A DNA stretch of 59,575 nucleotides from a virus: positions 1 through 59,575 of the IMG/VR virus record IMGVR_UViG_3300008262_000198; one strand, given 5' to 3'. Position numbers and translations under genes: made by a program. Positions 24,682-30,835 of this stretch are shown here, in pieces. Below the pieces are notes generated by a model. The model saw nothing but the letters and a program-made list of their open reading frames with translations. It had not been told where the DNA came from and ran no database searches. Positions within the stretch are counted from its first letter, which is position 1. Every line of letters starts with the position of its first letter.

Positions 24682-24689
24682 TATATTTG
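24682..24689 (+). promoter_or_regulatory. Promoter of tRNA array 1 and its leader peptide
   Basis: TATATTTG fits TAnnTTTG and lies 17 nt before the leader ATG at 24707. Confidence 0.65.
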
Positions 24690-24706
24690 CATATATTTAT
24701 AAGACA

Positions 24707-24799
24707 ATGACAAACTTGTTTAACATACTAACGATAGAGAATACACCAAATAATGGTGGTGGGTATGATGTGCCAGTATACAAACAAGTTCGGAGTTAA
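24707..24799 (+). CDS. Leader peptide of tRNA array 1 (attenuator)
   Basis: A 30-codon ORF between a promoter and an intrinsic terminator. Codons 2-25 use Thr (ACA, ACG), Asn (AAC, AAT), Ile (ATA), Leu (CTA, TTG), Glu (GAG), Pro (CCA), Gly (GGT, GGG), Tyr (TAT, TAC), Asp (GAT) and Val (GTG, GTA), plus one Phe. Twenty-two of these 24 are read by tRNAs of the array behind it; the two misfits, TTG and TTT (codons 4-5), lie in an RNA pairing element. The codons AAA to AGT at the end lie over the second pairing element. The product itself is probably not functional as a protein; its translation senses charged tRNAs. It sits in frame within a longer open frame that starts in the preceding gene. Confidence 0.72.
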   Translation: MTNLFNILTIENTPNNGGGYDVPVYKQVRS

Positions 24800-24858
24800 A
24801 AAAATTTATTAAAACAAAATAAACATAAACCCGAACACAAAAAGTTCGGGTTTTTTTT
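24713..24858 (+). promoter_or_regulatory. Transcription attenuator of tRNA array 1
   Basis: Four mutually exclusive segments are visible. Segment 1 AACTTGTTT (24713-24721) pairs with segment 2 AAACAAGTT (24782-24790). Segment 2 also offers GTTCGG (24788-24793) to segment 3 CCGAAC (24831-24836). Segment 3 (AACCCGAAC) pairs with segment 4 GTTCGGGTT (24844-24852), which is followed by eight T: the terminator. A ribosome halted between codons 5 and 24 masks segment 1 and favours the 2:3 antiterminator; a ribosome reaching the stop masks segment 2 and allows termination. This is the trp-operon logic. Confidence 0.7.
24828..24858 (+). terminator. Intrinsic terminator of the array 1 attenuator
   Basis: AACCCGAAC/GTTCGGGTT stem with a 7-nt A-rich loop and T8. 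Confidence 0.9.
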
Positions 24859-24864
24859 GTTAAT

Positions 24865-24880
24865 AGATCTTTGAAATAAT
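24865..24880 (+). promoter_or_regulatory. boxA-like element before tRNA array 1
   Basis: AGATCTTTGAAATAAT directly before tRNA-Pro resembles the GTTCTTTGA(C/A)A elements before the other stable RNAs of this window. Confidence 0.45.
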
Positions 24881-24954
24881 CGGGATGTAGTTCAGTCCGG
24901 TAGAATGCTTGGTTTGGGACCAAGATGTCGTAGGTTCGAATCCTGCCATCCCGA
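24881..24954 (+). tRNA. tRNA-Pro (TGG)
   Basis: Acceptor CGGGATG/CATCCCG, anticodon arm CTTGG-TTTGGGA-CCAAG, T-arm with TTCGAAT; no encoded CCA. First gene of array 1. Confidence 0.96.
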
Positions 24955-24960
24955 CATAAT

Positions 24961-25032
24961 GTCTTCTTAGCTCAACGGTAGAGCAATTGGCTGTTAACCA
25001 ATAGGTTTTAGGTTCGAATCCTAAAGAGGACG
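24961..25032 (+). tRNA. tRNA-Asn (GTT)
   Basis: Acceptor GTCTTCT/AGAGGAC, anticodon arm ATTGG-CTGTTAA-CCAAT, T-loop TTCGAAT. Confidence 0.96.
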
Positions 25033-25037
25033 CAATC

Positions 25038-25119
25038 GCCCCGATGGTGGAATTGGTAGTCACGGCAGACTTAGGATCTGTTGCCTTATGGTGTGAGAGT
25101 TCGAGTCTCTCTTGGGGTA
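25038..25119 (+). tRNA. tRNA-Leu (TAG)
   Basis: Class II; acceptor GCCCCGA/TTGGGGT with wobble ends, anticodon loop CTTAGGA, variable arm, T-arm GAGAG-TTCGAGT-CTCTC. Confidence 0.95.
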
Positions 25120-25128
25120 CATTAAATT

Positions 25129-25201
25129 GGCCGATTAGTTCAGCAGGTTAGAATGCGTGACTTGTAATCATGAGACGACAGTTCGATTCTGTCATTGGCC
25201 T
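25129..25201 (+). tRNA. tRNA-Thr (TGT)
   Basis: Acceptor GGCCGAT/ATTGGCC, anticodon loop CTTGTAA, T-arm GACAG-TTCGATT-CTGTC. Confidence 0.95.
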
Positions 25202-25205
25202 CATA

Positions 25206-25281
25206 AGCGGATTTCGCCTAGTTGGCATGGCACCACACTTCCACTGTGGAATAGGGTCGGTTCGAGACCGTCAATCCGCTC
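25206..25281 (+). tRNA. tRNA-Gly (TCC)
   Basis: Acceptor AGCGGAT/ATCCGCT, anticodon arm CCACA-CTTCCAC-TGTGG, T-loop TTCGAGA. Confidence 0.93.
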
Positions 25282-25326
25282 AGAATTTTTTTTATTCAAA
25301 TATATTTTGTATGTTTGAATTTGTAA

Positions 25327-25409
25327 GGTGTAGTTGAGCAATTGGTTGGCTCGCCGGACTGTAAATCCGGTCCCTTCGGGGCTTGTAGGTTCGAGTCCTA
25401 CCTACACCA
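25327..25409 (+). tRNA. tRNA-Tyr (GTA)
   Basis: Acceptor GGTGTAG/CTACACC, anticodon arm CCGGA-CTGTAAA-TCCGG, long bacterial-type variable arm, T-loop TTCGAGT. Confidence 0.96.
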
Positions 25410-25415
25410 CAAATT

Positions 25416-25487
25416 GCCGCTGTCGTCTAACGGTTAGGACGCGTCCCTTTCACGGACAAAATGCGAGTTCGATTCTCGTCGGTGGTA
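25416..25487 (+). tRNA. tRNA-Glu (TTC)
   Basis: Acceptor GCCGCTG/CGGTGGT with three wobble pairs, anticodon loop CTTTCAC, T-arm CGAG-TTCGATT-CTCG. Confidence 0.94.
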
Positions 25488-25492
25488 CGATT

Positions 25493-25564
25493 GGTCTCAT
25501 AGTTAATCGGCTATAATATTGCCCTGTCACGGCAAAGTGCCGGGTTCGATTCCCGGTGGGACCG
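25493..25564 (+). tRNA. tRNA-Asp (GTC)
   Basis: Acceptor GGTCTCA/TGGGACC, anticodon arm TTGCC-CTGTCAC-GGCAA, T-arm CCGGG-TTCGATT-CCCGG. Confidence 0.95.
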
Positions 25565-25568
25565 CAAA

Positions 25569-25611
25569 CTTCAGGAGTAATTAACCTGAAGATGGAAGGT
25601 TCGAAACTTTC
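25569..25611 (+). other. Orphan tRNA 3'-half-like element
   Basis: Stem CTTCAGG/CCTGAAG with a 9-nt loop is followed by a 3-nt spacer and a perfect 5-bp T-arm (GAAGG-TTCGAAA-CTTTC). There is no D-arm or acceptor 5' strand, so this looks like the right half of a tRNA gene left in the array. Confidence 0.5.
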
Positions 25612-25614
25612 GAT

Positions 25615-25714
25615 TGGCTATGGTGTAATGGGCACACTGGTCCCGTGATTGGCTCGGTTATCGTCGAGTTTCAGTCGGGACCGGGGGATTCAGGTTCAAT
25701 TCCTGATTGGTCAG
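25615..25714 (+). tRNA. tRNA-like gene with an expanded anticodon loop
   Basis: Acceptor TGGCTAT/TTGGTCA (six pairs), a D-arm identical in type to that of tRNA-Arg(ACG), and T-arm TCAGG-TTCAATT-CCTGA are all present. The anticodon stem TGGTC/GACCG encloses a 36-nt loop instead of 7, which folds into its own hairpin (CTCG/CGAG core, extended by CCG/CGG). No anticodon can be read directly. Either it contains a small insertion that must be removed, or it is a decayed or decoy tRNA. Confidence 0.5.
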
Positions 25715-25720
25715 CAAAAT

Positions 25721-25794
25721 GGACCCTTAGCTCAGTAGGTTAGAGCAAATGACTCATAATCATTAGGTGCACGGTTCGAGCCCGTGAGGGTCCA
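25721..25794 (+). tRNA. tRNA with CAT anticodon, probably tRNA-Ile2 (lysidine, reads ATA)
   Basis: Acceptor GGACCCT/AGGGTCC, anticodon arm AATGA-CTCATAA-TCATT, T-arm CACGG-TTCGAGC-CCGTG. The pairs C4-G69 and C5-G68 and the start GGxCCCTTAGCTCAG are like tRNA-Ile2, which TilS modifies, rather than elongator Met. The array 1 leader contains two ATA codons and no internal ATG, which agrees. Confidence 0.85.
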
Positions 25795-25799
25795 CATTT

Positions 25800-25871
25800 A
25801 GTCCTTTAGCTTAGTGGGAAAGCGGTTGTCTTACATGCAACATAGAGTGTGTTCGATTCACACAGGGACTA
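25800..25871 (+). tRNA. tRNA-Val (TAC)
   Basis: Acceptor AGTCCTT/AGGGACT, anticodon arm GTTGT-CTTACAT-GCAAC, T-arm TGTG-TTCGATT-CACA. Confidence 0.94.
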
Positions 25872-25873
25872 CC

Positions 25874-25976
25874 CCCGATATGTATGTGTAAGCAAGAAGC
25901 ATATCATCAGTTGGGATCTTACAGTCCACGAACTGGGGTCCGGTGGGAACCGGGATGAGAGTACCCGAACCTCTCA
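25874..25976 (+). other. Hairpin-rich spacer inside tRNA array 1
   Basis: About 100 nt between tRNA-Val and tRNA-Gly without a tRNA. Four consecutive hairpins are visible: GATATG/CATATC, CAGTT/AACTG with an inner GGGA/TCC, CCGGT-GGGA-ACCGG, and GAGAG/CTCTC. Function unknown. Confidence 0.4.
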
Positions 25977-25979
25977 AAC

Positions 25980-26051
25980 GCAGATATAGCACAATGGTTA
26001 GTGTTCGGCCTTGCCAAGGCTGAGATGCCAGTTCGAATCTGACTATCTGCT
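25980..26051 (+). tRNA. tRNA-Gly (GCC)
   Basis: Acceptor GCAGATA/TATCTGC, anticodon arm CGGCC-TTGCCAA-GGCTG, T-loop TTCGAAT. Confidence 0.95.
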
Positions 26052-26057
26052 CAAATT

Positions 26058-26205
26058 GTACTGTGGTGAAATTGGCAGACACCCCCACTCGTCTCGTGGG
26101 CGTCGACAACGAAATAGGTAAATGGATAAGGGTTGACCACAAGCTAGCTAGCATATTTGTCCTTTACCGAATCGCGACATAGACGGTTCGAATCCTCTCG
26201 GTACA
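26058..26205 (+). tRNA. tRNA-Leu-like gene with an oversized variable region
   Basis: Acceptor GTACTGT/TCGGTAC and a Leu-type D-arm (TGGTGAAATTGGCAGAC) are clear. The next stem, CCCAC/GTGGG, holds the loop TCGTCTC, which lacks the usual T33. About 85 nt of extra structured sequence follows (GTCG/CGAC enclosing GGTAAA/TTTACC) before a weak T-arm around GGTTCGAATCC. At about 148 nt it is roughly 60 nt too long for a class II tRNA. It is the last RNA gene of array 1. Confidence 0.5.
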
Positions 26206-26235
26206 GCATATATTTTTGACAAATAAAAATAGTTT

Positions 26236-26475
26236 ATGACGATCTTAATCGGCATCAATGAATTAGAAGAAGAATTTCAAATACCGTGGAAGATGGGATT
26301 AGTTAATCATTTGGTCATTGATTACGCAGACAACGCAATCTATGGTACATTTGAGAAAAAAGAAGTAATTATTTTTAGGTTCAAAAAATATGGTTGGGTT
26401 TGTGATAATAGATACAATTTATACACACTATCAAGTGGTGAGGCAGGTATCATGATTAACATGAATTCAACATAA
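26236..26475 (+). CDS. Small protein of unknown function
   Basis: The 79-residue product has a beta-rich pattern (NHLVIDYADNAIYGTFEKKEVIIFRFKKYG reads as three strands) and no known motif. It starts 30 nt after array 1 with no terminator between, so it may be co-transcribed and hence under attenuator control. Confidence 0.65.
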   Translation: MTILIGINELEEEFQIPWKMGLVNHLVIDYADNAIYGTFEKKEVIIFRFKKYGWVCDNRYNLYTLSSGEAGIMINMNST

Positions 26476-26499
26476 AATATTTATTAATAACAACATGTT

Positions 26500-26961
26500 A
26501 TGAGAAAATTTAAAACATTATTCGGAATTGAGATTGATAATCTTGCTGAATATATTAAAGAATATATTTCAACAAGAGAAAATGTGGAGATATTAGTTGG
26601 CGCCGATTCTCAAAATTATAGTAATAGAAAAACTATATATGGAGTTGTTATTGCCTTATACACAAAAGGTAAAGGTGCACATGTTTTGTGTTCAAGAGAT
26701 ACTGTTCCAATTGAGAGAAACACATCAACCAGATTACTTACTGAAGTTTGGAAATCAATTGAGACCGCAGAATTTTTAAAAGAAAATGGTTTACCAAAAC
26801 CATTATGGATTGATATTGACTTAAATCCTGATCCGAAATTTAAATCAAATACCGTATTAAGACAAGCGGTTGGTCTTGTTGAAGGTATGGGTTATCAAGT
26901 TAGATATAAACAATTAGGTGCTATGGTAACATACGCCGCAAATCACTTAGTTAGAAATTAA
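26500..26961 (+). CDS. RNase H-like nuclease of the YkuK/DUF458 family
   Basis: The 153-residue protein matches YkuK-type proteins: VEILVGADSQNYSNRKTIYG begins the RNase H fold with the first acidic residue, followed by VVIALYTKGKGAHVL and the later PLWIDIDLNPDPKFKSN, which supplies further acidic residues. The family is predicted to cut RNA, but activity is not established. It lies downstream of tRNA array 1, so a role in RNA turnover or tRNA processing is possible. Confidence 0.83.
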   Translation: MRKFKTLFGIEIDNLAEYIKEYISTRENVEILVGADSQNYSNRKTIYGVVIALYTKGKGAHVLCSRDTVPIERNTSTRLLTEVWKSIETAEFLKENGLPKPLWIDIDLNPDPKFKSNTVLRQAVGLVEGMGYQVRYKQLGAMVTYAANHLVRN

Positions 26962-26996
26962 ATTATACTTTTCTTTGTTTTTACAATATTTATTAT

Positions 26997-27004
26997 TATC
27001 TTTG
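26997..27004 (+). promoter_or_regulatory. Promoter of tRNA array 2 and its leader peptide
   Basis: TATCTTTG with TTG (26975-26977) 19 nt upstream, the canonical Bacteroidota spacing. The leader ATG lies 29 nt downstream. Confidence 0.8.
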
Positions 27005-27033
27005 TAAAACAAAAGATTAAAAAAATAAATTCG

Positions 27034-27135
27034 ATGAAACAGTTCAAACATATTATGTCGTTTATTAGTTGTTCAAAATGGGCAAGTCAGCGTCATATCC
27101 GTATGTCCCGATCTGTTTGTATGAATTTGTGTTAA
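27034..27135 (+). CDS. Leader peptide of tRNA array 2 (attenuator)
   Basis: A 33-codon ORF between promoter and terminator. Codons 2-24 encode only Lys, Gln, Phe, His, Ile (ATT/ATC), Met, Ser, Cys, Trp, Ala and Arg. Every one of these 23 codons is read by an anticodon found in array 2 (TTT, TTG, GAA, GTG, GAT, CAT, TGA/GCT, GCA, CCA, TGC, ACG). The only residues foreign to array 2 (Val, Asn, Leu) come after the pairing element at codons 24-26. Such a composition is very unlikely by chance and points to a sensor of charged tRNA. Confidence 0.78.
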   Translation: MKQFKHIMSFISCSKWASQRHIRMSRSVCMNLC

Positions 27136-27189
27136 AATATTTTAATAAGTAATTCAAAAAAACCTCGGGACAAAATCTCGAGGTTTTTT
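27079..27189 (+). promoter_or_regulatory. Transcription attenuator of tRNA array 2
   Basis: Segment 1 TGGGCA (27079-27084) can pair with TGTCCC (27104-27109) with one bulge. Segment 2 GTCCCGA (27105-27111) is the exact complement of segment 3 TCGGGAC (27165-27171). Segment 3, as part of AACCTCGGGA, pairs with TCTCGAGGTT (27176-27185) to form the terminator followed by T6. Ribosome stalling in codons 2-20 would free segment 2 for the antiterminator. The 1:2 pairing is weaker than in array 1. Confidence 0.65.
27161..27189 (+). terminator. Intrinsic terminator of the array 2 attenuator
   Basis: AACCTCG/CGAGGTT stem with an inner GGA/TCT part and T6; ends 8 nt before tRNA-Ala. Confidence 0.9.
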
Positions 27190-27196
27190 GTTTTAT

Positions 27197-27269
27197 GGGC
27201 TGTCATGTTCCAAGGCTGGCGAAGGACCCTTGCAAGGTCTTTGGGAGATTTCGATTATCTCACGGTCCA
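27197..27269 (+). tRNA. tRNA-Ala (TGC)
   Basis: Acceptor GGGCTGT/ACGGTCC, anticodon arm GGACC-CTTGCAA-GGTCT, T-arm GAGAT-TTCGATT-ATCTC. D-stem only 3 bp. Confidence 0.9.
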
Positions 27270-27275
27270 CATAAT

Positions 27276-27349
27276 GTTCGGGTAGATCAATTGGTGAGAT
27301 CATTCGCCTGATACGCGAAAGGTTGTAGGTTCGAGTCCTACTCCGAACA
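27276..27349 (+). tRNA. tRNA-Ile (GAT)
   Basis: Acceptor GTTCGGG/TCCGAAC, anticodon arm TTCGC-CTGATAC-GCGAA, T-arm GTAGG-TTCGAGT-CCTAC. Confidence 0.95.
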
Positions 27350-27354
27350 CGAAT

Positions 27355-27427
27355 GGTACACAAGCTAACTTAGTAGAAGCATTGGACTGAAAATCCAAGG
27401 GACTTGGAGCGTAACCAAGGTGTACCA
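27355..27427 (+). tRNA. tRNA-Phe (GAA) with a non-canonical T-loop
   Basis: Acceptor GGTACAC/GTGTACC and anticodon arm TTGGA-CTGAAAA-TCCAA are normal. The T-arm stem CTTGG/CCAAG is intact, but its loop is AGCGTAA in place of TTCGANN, so the T54-Psi55-C56 corner is missing. Confidence 0.88.
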
Positions 27428-27435
27428 CAAACATA

Positions 27436-27511
27436 TTCCCTCGTAACTCAATTGGCTAGAGTACCACACTTTTAATGTGGGAGTTTCGAGTTCGAATCTC
27501 GACGGGGGAAC
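27436..27511 (+). tRNA. tRNA-Lys (TTT)
   Basis: Acceptor TTCCCTC/GGGGGAA, anticodon arm CCACA-CTTTTAA-TGTGG, T-arm TCGAG-TTCGAAT-CTCGA. Confidence 0.94.
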
Positions 27512-27514
27512 AAT

Positions 27515-27586
27515 GGTCGGATGGCCGAGTGGATTAGGTGGAGGTCTGCAAAACCTCTTACGTCAGTTCGATTCTGACTCCGACCT
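27515..27586 (+). tRNA. tRNA-Cys (GCA)
   Basis: Acceptor GGTCGGA/TCCGACC, anticodon arm GAGGT-CTGCAAA-ACCTC, T-arm GTCAG-TTCGATT-CTGAC, discriminator T as in Cys tRNAs. Confidence 0.95.
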
Positions 27587-27592
27587 CAAATA

Positions 27593-27667
27593 CACGGGTG
27601 TGGTGAAATTGGTTATCATTTCGGTCTCCAAAACCGACGTTTCAGATTCGAATTCTGACATCCGTGC
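27593..27667 (+). tRNA. tRNA-Trp (CCA)
   Basis: Acceptor CACGGGT/ATCCGTG, anticodon arm TCGGT-CTCCAAA-ACCGA, T-loop TTCGAAT. Confidence 0.94.
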
Positions 27668-27670
27668 AAT

Positions 27671-27743
27671 GGTTCTATGGTGTAATGGATTAGCACACGA
27701 AGCTACGGACTTCGGAGTTTGGGTTCGAGTCCTAATAGAACCA
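27671..27743 (+). tRNA. tRNA-Arg (ACG)
   Basis: Acceptor GGTTCTA/TAGAACC, anticodon arm CGAAG-CTACGGA-CTTCG, T-arm TTGGG-TTCGAGT-CCTAA. Needs A34-to-inosine editing to read all CGN(T/C/A). Confidence 0.95.
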
Positions 27744-27748
27744 CATAT

Positions 27749-27820
27749 TGTTCCGTGATGTAATGGTTAGCATACAAGAATTTGACTCTTGTAGTATAGG
27801 TTCGAGTCCTATCGGAACAT
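27749..27820 (+). tRNA. tRNA-Gln (TTG)
   Basis: Acceptor TGTTCCG/CGGAACA, anticodon arm CAAGA-ATTTGAC-TCTTG, T-arm ATAGG-TTCGAGT-CCTAT. Confidence 0.94.
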
Positions 27821-27826
27821 CATAAA

Positions 27827-27875
27827 GGAGAGGTCGTATAGTGGTTTAGTACAGTAGTCTTGAAAACTACCGCAT
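27827..27875 (+). pseudogene. 5' half of a tRNA-Ser (TGA)
   Basis: An acceptor 5' strand GGAGAGG, a D-arm and a complete anticodon arm GTAGT-CTTGAAA-ACTAC (anticodon TGA) are present, but the sequence then runs straight into tRNA-His; variable arm, T-arm and acceptor 3' strand are absent. The leader peptide of this array uses TCA and TCG, codons this tRNA would read, so a complete gene probably existed, or the half is used in an unknown way. Confidence 0.6.
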
Positions 27876-27878
27876 ATG

Positions 27879-27955
27879 GTGGCCTGAGATGGGTTGGTTA
27901 CATCGTCAGATTGTGGCTCTGAAGAACACGGGTTCGACTCCCGTAGGTCACACCA
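27879..27955 (+). tRNA. tRNA-His (GTG)
   Basis: Acceptor GTGGCCT/AGGTCAC, anticodon arm TCAGA-TTGTGGC-TCTGA, T-arm ACGGG-TTCGACT-CCCGT, encoded CCA. The base before the gene is G, as needed for G-1. Confidence 0.95.
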
Positions 27956-27958
27956 AAA

Positions 27959-28047
27959 GGAGAGTAAACTACGACGGTGAGTAGACATGCCTGCTAAGCA
28001 TTGTGTTCGTTAATTCGGATGAGGTTCGATCCCTCTACTCTCCGCCA
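27959..28047 (+). tRNA. tRNA-Ser (GCT)
   Basis: Class II; acceptor GGAGAGT/ACTCTCC, anticodon loop CTGCTAA, long variable arm, T-loop TTCGATC, encoded CCA. Confidence 0.93.
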
Positions 28048-28050
28048 AAT

Positions 28051-28123
28051 GCCGTGGGTTAGTGGAATACGACTATCTCTCATAAGGATGGAGAACACAG
28101 TTCGAACCTGTGCTACGGTACCA
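28051..28123 (+). tRNA. tRNA-Met, elongator (CAT)
   Basis: Acceptor GCCGTGG/CTACGGT, anticodon loop CTCATAA in a stem TATCT/GGATG, T-arm CACAG-TTCGAAC-CTGTG, encoded CCA. The D-arm is short. The leader of array 2 contains internal ATG codons and no ATA, which supports Met over Ile2. Confidence 0.85.
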
Positions 28124-28166
28124 AAAAAAAGTTTTAAAAAGATTTTGTATTTTAAAAAAGTATTTA

Positions 28167-28191
28167 TATCTTTGTAAAAGTTCTTTAAACA
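28167..28191 (+). promoter_or_regulatory. Promoter with boxA-like element for initiator tRNA
   Basis: TATCTTTG (28167-28174), TTG 19 nt upstream, then GTTCTTTAAACA (28180-28191) just before the tRNA. Confidence 0.78.
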
Positions 28192-28192
28192 T

Positions 28193-28264
28193 CGTGGCGT
28201 GGAGAAGTGGTATCTCACTAGGCTCATAACCTAGGGACCGTTGGTTCGAATCCAACCGCCGCAA
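28193..28264 (+). tRNA. Initiator tRNA-fMet (CAT)
   Basis: The acceptor CGTGGCG/CGCCGCA has the C1-A72 mismatch that defines bacterial initiators. Anticodon arm CTAGG-CTCATAA-CCTAG, D-arm GAGA/TCTC, T-arm GTTGG-TTCGAAT-CCAAC. No CCA. It has its own promoter, so it is not under attenuator control. Confidence 0.93.
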
Positions 28265-28307
28265 CAAAAAAGTTTTAAAAAGATTTTGTTTTTTGAAAAA
28301 CTCTTTT

Positions 28308-28315
28308 TATATTTG
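28308..28315 (+). promoter_or_regulatory. Bacteroidota-type promoter upstream of the large RNA
   Basis: TATATTTG with TTG 19 nt upstream; followed by a hairpin TTCGGT/ACCGAA and a boxA-like GTTCTTAAA at 28346. Confidence 0.7.
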
Positions 28316-28396
28316 TAAAACAATTCGGTAATACACACCGAAAAAGTTCTTAAAAAAAAAGTTTGACAAAAATTTGGAAAGTTGAAAAACACTTCT

Positions 28397-28438
28397 TATC
28401 TTTGTAAAACAATCGGAAACGATAAAGTTCTTTGAAAA
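28397..28438 (+). promoter_or_regulatory. Second promoter plus boxA-like element of the large RNA
   Basis: TATCTTTG (28397-28404) with TTG 20 nt upstream; GTTCTTTGAAAA at 28427-28438 follows within the first 25 transcribed bases. Confidence 0.78.
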
Positions 28439-29334
28439 TATTGGGCGGTCTATAGTCCATAAAATAAACCATGAAAGTGGTATAAAGTGGAATACCTTGG
28501 TTTTGGTATTCTGCGGCTTGGGTAACCGAGCTCGAGTAGACAAACGAGATATCGTCTGACCTTTAGTACTGAGGGTAACACTGTAGGGAAAGTGGTTGGG
28601 CGATCAAGCGATGTGGGTCGTTTGGTTGAGGTGGGAACACCAATAAGAATAACTCGTAGAATTATTGCAAGAAATGTTGTTATCCGACTTCATAATTGCG
28701 TTTTTCAATATTATGGTTGTCTTAAAACCGAAAGGTATGTTAGTGTACAGGTGGTGCTGTTATTAACCTTAACCTTAGCCTACCAAGGCATGAGTTATGA
28801 AGATGAGCAAAAATATGGAGGTGGGGACATCTCAGAGGGTAGTTTAGTATTTAGCCGTTCAAAAGATGGCTGAGCTGGTGACGAACCACTACCTTCACAA
28901 TCCACAAACCAATAACTTGCATCCATTTAATTGCAAAATTAATAAATCAAGGAAAAGTGTTCGTCAGTTGTGGATGACAGGTCACTACATAGTCATGAGT
29001 TGTTCATGGCCATGAAGGGTCCCAAGCCCAACATGATTTTCACCAAAGTTCTCTAATCTCGCAAGGATTAATTGGGGTGGCAACCTCGAAGAGTGATGAG
29101 TAATGAGAGAGTGATTCACAACTTAAGGATTGGTTAATCTAATTGACCGTGACTGATTATTACTACTCAAAAGGTAGTGGATAAGGGAAGAATCAATAAT
29201 GTCCCAAAGATAATCACCCGAACGTGTAATCTCAGCGTTTTATTTTCCTGATTTTTATAAAATCATGGTGGTGGAGTAATAAAAAGATTTCATGCCGCAA
29301 GGCCCCAAAGGTTAGATTTTTCTAACCTTTTTTT
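28411..29334 (+). ncRNA. Large structured non-coding RNA, about 0.9 kb
   Basis: Between a tandem promoter with boxA and a strong intrinsic terminator (29307-29334) lie about 900 nt without credible genes; the base composition is richer in G than the coding sequence. Local hairpins are easy to see: GAATACC/GGTATTC (about 28490-28511), AATAA/TTATT around 28650, the palindrome TTCATGGCCATGAA near 29010, and ACTAC/GGTAGT near 29165. It lacks the conserved RNase P segments (such as GAGGAAAGTCC) and is not rRNA. Size, phage origin and position next to tRNA genes match the GOLLD and ROOL classes of giant RNA; I cannot test the consensus here. Confidence 0.7.
29307..29334 (+). terminator. Intrinsic terminator of the large RNA
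   Basis: AAAGGTTAGA/TCTAACCTTT perfect stem with TTTT loop, followed by T4-G-T5. Confidence 0.92.
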
Positions 29335-30442: not shown

Positions 30443-30835
30443 GGGGGTGTCCAGGTATTGATTGGCGTTTATATGGTAAATGGGCACGTAGTCAGATGTC
30501 ATCTATGACTTAAATCTACGGTGGTAAAAATCAAACGGCAACGTTTACAACAACATGGAAATTGCAGGTATCCTTGCAACTTCTAAAGTAGCTGCTTAAT
30601 AAGTACCTACTGTCGGGTCGGTTAGGACATATAACCCAGGAACAGAAGTCCGTTATACGGGTCACAGGTCAGAGCTCGTTTAAAATAATTCTGAGACCAA
30701 GTTGTTTGTAGGTAGGTTTCTCACATATATCAAACCTAATATTTTGGAACATTGAGAACCAATGTTATACTAAACGTGTAGTCCATCTATTGTATGGCGA
30801 ACAAGACAAGGGTTCGATTCCCTTCACCTCCACCA
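30443..30835 (+). ncRNA. ssrA: tmRNA (ssrA)
   Basis: The ends fold into the tRNA-Ala-like half: GGGGGTG pairs with CACCTCC, the T-arm is AAGGG-TTCGATT-CCCTT and CCA is encoded. Inside, a short reading frame from GGC at 30537 gives the 20-residue tag GNVYNNMEIAGILATSKVAA, followed by two TAA codons. Pseudoknot-like pairings fill the rest. The RNA rescues stalled ribosomes and marks the unfinished protein for proteolysis. The tag is long for a tmRNA and ends in VAA rather than the usual LAA. Confidence 0.93.

Follow-up and report, generated by a model that had tools for sequence, protein, structure and literature searches.

Leader-peptide attenuation of amino acid operons (trp, his and similar) controls biosynthetic enzymes, and T-box riboswitches sense the state of a tRNA to control transcription. 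The phage leaders analysed here differ from the amino acid operon leaders in what they control, namely tRNA genes, and in how much they appear to sense at once, about 11 to 20 amino acids with isoacceptors separated. Unlike in trp- or his-type leaders, the antiterminator element lies inside the ORF, and our folding model needs no separate anti-antiterminator arm. T-boxes differ in that sensing by the phage leaders appears to go through the ribosome, and we found no T-box match in Rfam, either at gathering level in the window (the whole stretch of DNA analysed, a 59,575-base IMG/VR virus record) or up to E 10 in 24700-28400. Rfam matches in the window at gathering level were limited to tRNA, tmRNA and GOLLD; weak matches to His, Thr and Leu leaders (E 0.04-0.1, below gathering) were set aside as probably reflecting terminator shape.

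To our knowledge, tRNA genes controlled by leader-peptide attenuation would be without precedent, as would leaders that poll as many as all 20 amino acids. The mechanism itself is of an already known kind; novelty lies, as far as the openly licensed literature listed shows, in what is regulated, in how many amino acids are sensed and in a leader content that mirrors array content, and no prior description of such tRNA-array leaders was among the matches listed in that literature. Phage tRNAs have been described as a counter-defence against host systems that cut tRNA (PMC10264068, PMC11555353), a likely reason for supplying replacement tRNAs during infection, and the main text of PMC10264068, in the portion available, has no occurrence of leader, attenuat, promoter or operon. 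Arrays of many tRNA genes are on record in huge phages, with Bacteroidetes hosts among them (PMC7162821), and the available part of that paper does not mention array regulation.

Two leaders and two tRNA arrays in one phage locus

The window encodes portal protein, terminase and tail proteins. Its inter-array ORF and both leaders recur identically on a 286,785-base contig, so the phage is probably large. Each of the two arrays is preceded by the same order of parts, from a Bacteroidota-type promoter motif through a short ORF and an intrinsic terminator to the tRNA genes:

24682-24689, plus strand: promoter-like TATATTTG of leader 1, from the sequence
24707-24799, plus strand: leader ORF 1, 30 codons, matching array 1 at 22 of the 26 codons before its element
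24788-24793, plus strand: putative antiterminator element GTTCGG within leader 1, complement of CCGAAC at 24831-24836
24827-24853, plus strand: intrinsic terminator of leader 1, from a pattern scan, hairpin -13.5 kcal/mol
24881-26209, plus strand: tRNA array 1 (ARAGORN), with Pro, Asn, Leu(TAG), Thr, Gly, Tyr, Glu, Asp, Ile2-like(CAT), Val, Gly and odd tRNA-like genes
26500-26961, plus strand: DUF458-like ORF between the arrays (phrog_11311, unknown function), used as the marker for finding relatives
26974-27004, plus strand: promoter-like TTTG-N19-TATCTTTG of leader 2, Bacteroidota type, from the sequence
27034-27135, plus strand: leader ORF 2, 33 codons, with codons 2-27 array-cognate by codon matching and a tail after them
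27105-27111, plus strand: putative antiterminator element GTCCCGA within leader 2, complement of 27165-27171, pairing in the ribosome-position model
27157-27189, plus strand: intrinsic terminator of leader 2, from a pattern scan, hairpin -16.8 kcal/mol
27197-28265 (whole array), plus strand: tRNA array 2 (ARAGORN), first Ala, Ile(GAT), Phe, Lys, Cys, Trp, Arg(ACG) and Gln, then Ser(TGA, truncated), His, Ser(GCT), Met-like(CAT) and initiator-like Met(CAT)

The motif upstream of leader 2 was assigned by the Bacteroidota promoter consensus. In the leader set, 32 of 61 members have TAnnTTTG no more than 75 nt from the ATG; for random ATGs the figure is 157 of 2635. Many leaders of one-array phages without TAnnTTTG have, by eye and uncounted, a ATATTTATA-like motif just upstream of the ATG, possibly a phage promoter. 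One phage-record match to the inter-array ORF is annotated as a DUF458 domain-containing protein.

Several features of the arrays are recorded here in their own right. The odd tRNA-like genes of array 1 lie at 25569-25715, 25870-25979 and 26057-26207; two have apparent insertions, and relaxed ARAGORN reads introns of ~25 and ~73 bases in these genes. In array 2, a Ser(TGA)-like tRNA at about 27829-27878 seems to lack its 3' half and is directly followed by tRNA-His; this truncation and the initiator/elongator assignment of the Met tRNAs were judged by eye. A 77% identical copy of 28123-28179, a stretch with a promoter-like motif, occupies 28353-28409, and an extra promoter around the last tRNA is possible. 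Downstream of the arrays are GOLLD RNA (338.5 bits) and tmRNA (86.8 bits), at 28835-29238 and 30443-30835.

The leader 2 peptide is MKQFKHIMSFISCSKWASQRHIRMSRSVCMNLC, and its codons 2-24 specify only A, C, F, H, I, K, M, Q, R, S and W, which are the 11 isotypes of array 2. An earlier note on this DNA had claimed a perfect codon match to the array. By amino acid the match is indeed 23 of 23; by codon class it falls to 21 of 23 if the truncated Ser(TGA)-like gene is left out. The isotype set also requires tRNA-Ala(TGC) at 27197-27270, tRNA-Ser(GCT) at 27959-28047 and the CAT tRNA at 28051-28123, which default ARAGORN missed and which were found by relaxed ARAGORN, a setting that also yields false calls; with default tRNAs alone the match is 18 of 23. 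The remaining particulars held: random sequence was said to match about half of the codons, and the expected fraction is 46% (mean of window ORFs 11.8 of 23), which puts the chance estimate p^23 at about 2e-8; the foreign residues begin only after the pairing element, with Val at codon 28; and every base of GTCCCGA (27105-27111) can pair with TCGGGAC (27165-27171), which lies in the left terminator arm. None of 14,800 23-codon stretches in 62 genes reaches 23 matches (maximum 19), and among 352 ATG ORFs of 24-60 codons in the window (261 stop codons) leader 2 stands alone at 23 of 23, the next best being a nested start of leader 2 itself (21) and the best unrelated ORF scoring 18. The observation on leader 2 is thus confirmed, and is stronger than first stated.

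Leader 1, with the peptide MTNLFNILTIENTPNNGGGYDVPVYKQVRS, carries array-1 codons at 22 of 26 positions before its element, the exceptions being TTG, TTT, AAA and CAA. Both of its Ile codons are ATA, and the array-1 CAT tRNA (25721) resembles an ATA-reading tRNA-Ile2; this assignment was made by eye, and the count of 22 of 26 rests on it. By codon class, leaders 1 and 2 match their own arrays at 22 of 26 and 21 of 23 positions and the other array at 3 of 26 and 0 of 23. What the earlier note missed is that the two leaders divide the 20 amino acids between them, and that many one-array relatives have leaders containing all 20.

Leader content follows array content across related phages

We defined relatives as virus-contig loci carrying the inter-array ORF, among the matches listed (up to 80 loci per list). 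The same ORF was present at 19 loci of genome contigs, mainly Chitinophagaceae or Chitinophagales MAGs, and only one, from a Flavobacterium MAG (L231), had a leader in the stretch examined. A metallophosphoesterase tried as a second marker mostly retrieved loci without tRNA arrays and was dropped. Leaders were called by structure only, as ATG ORFs of 25-60 codons upstream of a tRNA cluster and ending 12-40 bases before a terminator; among 588 clusters (L001-L218 plus the window, with many overlapping copies) this gave 103 calls with 62 different peptides. Two calls without an element of at least 6 bases (L070 at 9070 and L102 at 6086) were excluded from the leader-set analyses.

Leaders with an element are specific to tRNA clusters, preceding 55 of 395 deduplicated clusters against 5 of 2212 gene upstream regions; where a terminator is present, the counts are 55 of 67 and 5 of 152. 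Single tRNAs rarely have them (4/140) and clusters of ten or more tRNAs often do (17/41). Since some of the clusters are later parts of an array already counted, these figures do not give the share of arrays with a leader; the 24 of 41 large clusters in which the structure search called no leader were not inspected individually. That search also found no leader before the lone tRNA-Leu (21133) or tRNA-Arg (21781) of the window. Four members of a distant clade (L254, L258, L263 and L268) have large arrays and no convincing leader, and in two huge-phage records that carry a related marker gene, neither such an array nor such a leader occurs within 20 kb of that gene. With tblastn against 50,697 phage records, two of three leader peptides had no match and the third only an irrelevant capsid match at E = 1.

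To compare own and other array without hand choice, we used every two-leader locus found among the matches listed, ten in all (the window phage and nine relatives). By codon class, every one of the 20 leaders matches its own array better than the other, whether tRNAs are called with relaxed or standard settings; when only amino acids are compared, this holds for 19 of 20, so codon class separates the arrays better than amino acid does. With relaxed calls the own fit is 77-100% and the other fit 0-23%, except for the first leader of L047, at 9 of 18 against 8 of 18 (10 of 18 for the other array by amino acid). Isoacceptors are divided accordingly between the leader types that we call A (17 leaders) and B (13), with five leaders that fit neither type excluded: Ile ATT/ATC to ATA stands at 38:5 against 9:25, Arg CGN to AGR at 19:7 against 0:12 and Ser TCN to AGY at 37:4 against 14:14. 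The Fisher values for the splits (2.6e-8, 3.7e-5 and 2.7e-4) overstate independence, since related sequences are counted.

The A-type leaders can be aligned with one another and their arrays differ. In 17 of them, own matches number 361 of 420, against a mean of 326.0 and a maximum of 359 in 5000 permutations of the arrays (P = 0.0006 with standard tRNA calls); 15 B leaders have 307 of 394, against a mean of 246.2 and a maximum of 288. Poor fits (L008 11/27, L021 31/48, L022 13/23, L029 9/25) are included and one-array leaders (among them L187, L213 and L214, each without several residues) left out of this full repeat, which supersedes a hand-chosen set of 16 loci (18 of 18 leaders in nine phages; 293/325, with L013 out of the permutation). 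Residue by residue in the A leaders, Glu occurs in both leader and array 15 times and in neither twice, without exception; the corresponding counts are 7 and 9 with one exception for Val, 11 and 4 with two for Asp, 12 and 1 with four (all leader-only) for Thr, and 3 and 7 with seven for Gln. Leader presence thus follows the arrays poorly for Gln and Thr, and likewise for AGR.

Single phages illustrate the co-change. The array of L107 opens with Pro, Asn, Leu and Gln, and its leader has Ser-Asn-Gln-Pro-Asn where that of L009 has Ile-Ile-Cys-Ser-Lys, and Asn-Glu-Leu-Pro at the place of Ala-Asp-Glu-Arg-Ala; it still contains Phe, His, Thr and Trp, for which its array has no tRNA. A distant phage (L230) has a third split: its array, with Lys read by eye and one ORF interposed, opens with Phe, Trp, Ile, Ala, Cys, Asn, Tyr, Tyr, Lys, Met and Val, and 28 of the 30 leader residues before the element fit it, Gly being the sole foreign residue.

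In one-array phages the leaders approach pangrams. All 20 amino acids occur in 21 of the 62 structure-only peptides, within 39 to 53 codons, and F3-type leaders, which were selected by their diversity, hold 19 or 20 amino acids in 30-31 codons, as in MKHCISYQLSPQKSFWMNPVAEDIRLIGLTM (L060) and MKHCQSYQFSLTASWMNRPEVKDIRLKGLMM (L219). Of 26 leaders chosen because they hold at least 19 amino acids, three (L066, L070 and L181) cover all 24 codon classes, that is, the 20 amino acids with Ile, Leu, Arg and Ser split. Near-pangrams reach into the distant clade of L254, L258, L263 and L268 (L259, 19 amino acids in 38 codons; L264, 18 in 37). The P value per pangram leader is modest (0.003-0.04 for 21 leaders) and the leaders are related to one another; amino-acid diversity alone was therefore dropped as proof, and the weight of the pangrams comes from their recurrence in families that look unrelated in sequence. 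Omissions also follow the arrays in places: the L189 leader lacks Glu and Met, whose tRNAs sit in a separate later cluster, and Gly is missing from seven of the eight F3 and F4 arrays, while in the corresponding leaders it is confined to element codons or absent. Elsewhere array-encoded residues are missing, namely Met from five leaders (L077, L078, L170, L183, L184), Thr from three (L211, L217, L221) and others from eight further one-array leaders (L185, L187, L194, L213, L214, L231, L259, L264).

Apart from composition, leader types that look unrelated have C-terminal tails in common, with free synonymous change: D-T-D-V-G-stop, D-I-N-K-G-stop, E-A-S-G-W-stop and D-D-N-W-G-stop. Such tails recur in the leaders of L009, L013, L038, L049, L050, L058, L061 and L064, and of L107, L192, L193, L195, L196, L199 and L210; the Gly-ending tails are perhaps a slow-termination step.

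Reading frame, element and terminator

The reading frame of the leaders is preserved in three families. Within F1 ORFs, 54 of 54 gap runs are multiples of three, whereas the first 80 bases counted from the stop give 66 of 219; the ORFs of F2 and F3 give 8 of 8 and 4 of 4. For F1 the median dN is 0.23 and the median dS 0.64. The A-type ORFs, with poorly aligned ends, do not show this (23 runs multiples of three, 68 not), and B-type ORFs are even (4 and 4).

Of 61 leaders, 45 have at the ORF end an element that is Watson-Crick complementary over at least 6 bases to the left terminator arm; after the codons are shuffled, 11% do. In F1 the element/left-arm pair changes from leader to leader (GTTAGAGG/CCTCTAAC, GTTAGGGG/CCCCTAAC, GTTAAGGG/CCCTTAAC, GTCAGGGT/ACCCTGAC): across 16 leaders 98.4% of cells are paired, four of eight pairs have changed on both sides, and sliding the partner abolishes the signal, with the count of further pair types not above its shuffles. 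The terminator helix also covaries. For seven of these 16 leaders, the left arm finds a better match in the element than in the right arm, the terminator having G-U where the antiterminator has A-U.

We folded 11 leaders with a ribosome at successive positions, assuming a 31-base footprint and leaving out the right arm as not yet transcribed. In 10 of 11, the antiterminator is predicted to form with the ribosome in earlier codons and not with the ribosome in the next ~7-11 codons; in L195 this contrast is weaker in places. The border falls where the foreign Lys-Gln of leader 1 begin, and about six codons before the foreign residues of leader 2. In 10 of 11 leaders folded with no ribosome, the element has already paired with the left arm by the time the right arm appears (L195 reaches only 2.25 pairs), which in the model speaks against an anti-antiterminator such as trp segment 1:2. 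Once complete, the ribosome-free transcript favours the terminator in each of the 11 leaders, which means that the switch must work kinetically. With the assumed footprint, a ribosome at the stop re-exposes the element in window leader 2, L049, L056 and L078.

Attenuation calls for leader codons cognate to the regulated product, which are present; for an intrinsic terminator between the leader ORF and the regulated genes, met here by pattern and folding only; and for a competing antiterminator that depends on ribosome position, met in computation only.

A proposed tRNA-shortage attenuator and its alternatives

The earlier note's reading of leader 2 as an attenuator gains support from the isoacceptor-level match between leader and array, from their co-change across related phages, from the covariation of element and terminator arm in one leader family and from frame-preserving evolution in three; translation and the effect of stalling remain inferred. 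We consider it highly probable that the leaders are ribosome-mediated transcription attenuators sensing shortage of the tRNAs that they control. Transcription would begin just upstream of the leader ORF. With all tRNAs for the sensing codons present, the ribosome would trail RNA polymerase closely and cover the element near the ORF end, leaving the left arm to pair with the right arm, and transcription would stop before the array. If one tRNA were scarce, whether uncharged, cleaved or no longer made, an upstream stall would let the element pair with the left arm and the array would be transcribed; the newly made tRNAs would then relieve the stall and close the loop. Where arrays are split, each leader would carry the codons of its own array, and where there is one array, nearly all codon classes. 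The match, the co-change, the covariation, the preserved frame and the mutually exclusive predicted structures can be read from sequence; leader translation, stalling, read-through and feedback are inferred, there being no expression or translation data.

The same attenuator might instead respond to slow or absent translation in general (few ribosomes, antibiotic, ppGpp), its codon content being incidental. The antiterminator predicted in 10 of 11 ribosome-free leaders allows for this, as poor initiation would also give read-through, but general slowing offers no reason for leaders to avoid the codons of the other array, to split isoacceptors or to change with the array, and we regard it as improbable. 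A reversed polarity, in which efficient leader translation turns the array on, found no supporting evidence; in the model a ribosome near the ORF end blocks the antiterminator and an upstream ribosome permits it, which makes this reading very unlikely.

We give equally little credence to the leader ORF as a small functional phage peptide that a terminator merely separates from the tRNA genes. A median dN below dS and conserved stretches inside families would suit such a peptide, yet families that look unrelated in sequence have a common composition, Cys is present in 12 of 12 aligned F1 leaders at changing positions, composition tracks the array, and the element complements the terminator. That the ORFs arose by chance before ordinary terminators is scarcely credible: the modest P values of individual pangrams are in its favour, but it is contradicted by the better own-array fit of 20 of 20 leaders, and the chance tests in the window, the specificity for tRNA clusters, the F1 covariation and the enrichment of the element all stand against it.

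For the tRNA-shortage attenuator, the natural signal is inferred to be tRNA depletion during infection. The leaders would sense tRNA species more than amino acids, we infer, because isoacceptors are separated and amino acid starvation would hit all isoacceptors together. Host defences that cut tRNA, loss of host tRNA synthesis or ordinary starvation could each be the cause, and the data do not decide among them.

These leaders bear on the old question of why phages carry tRNAs and when they are made, since the leader sequence seems to spell out the set of tRNAs sensed. Depletion by tRNA-cutting host defences or by loss of host tRNA synthesis becomes a directly testable hypothesis, and the leaders offer a natural design for a general reporter of tRNA shortage. 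More broadly, and with somewhat less confidence than in the attenuator itself, we think it likely that one family of large Bacteroidota phages monitors the whole host tRNA pool by isoacceptor: the alphabet of the leader would be the content of the array, rewritten whenever a tRNA gene changes array, and the arrays would be self-limiting repair kits made only when any of their own tRNAs runs short, with Gly-ending tails that may add a step of slow termination.
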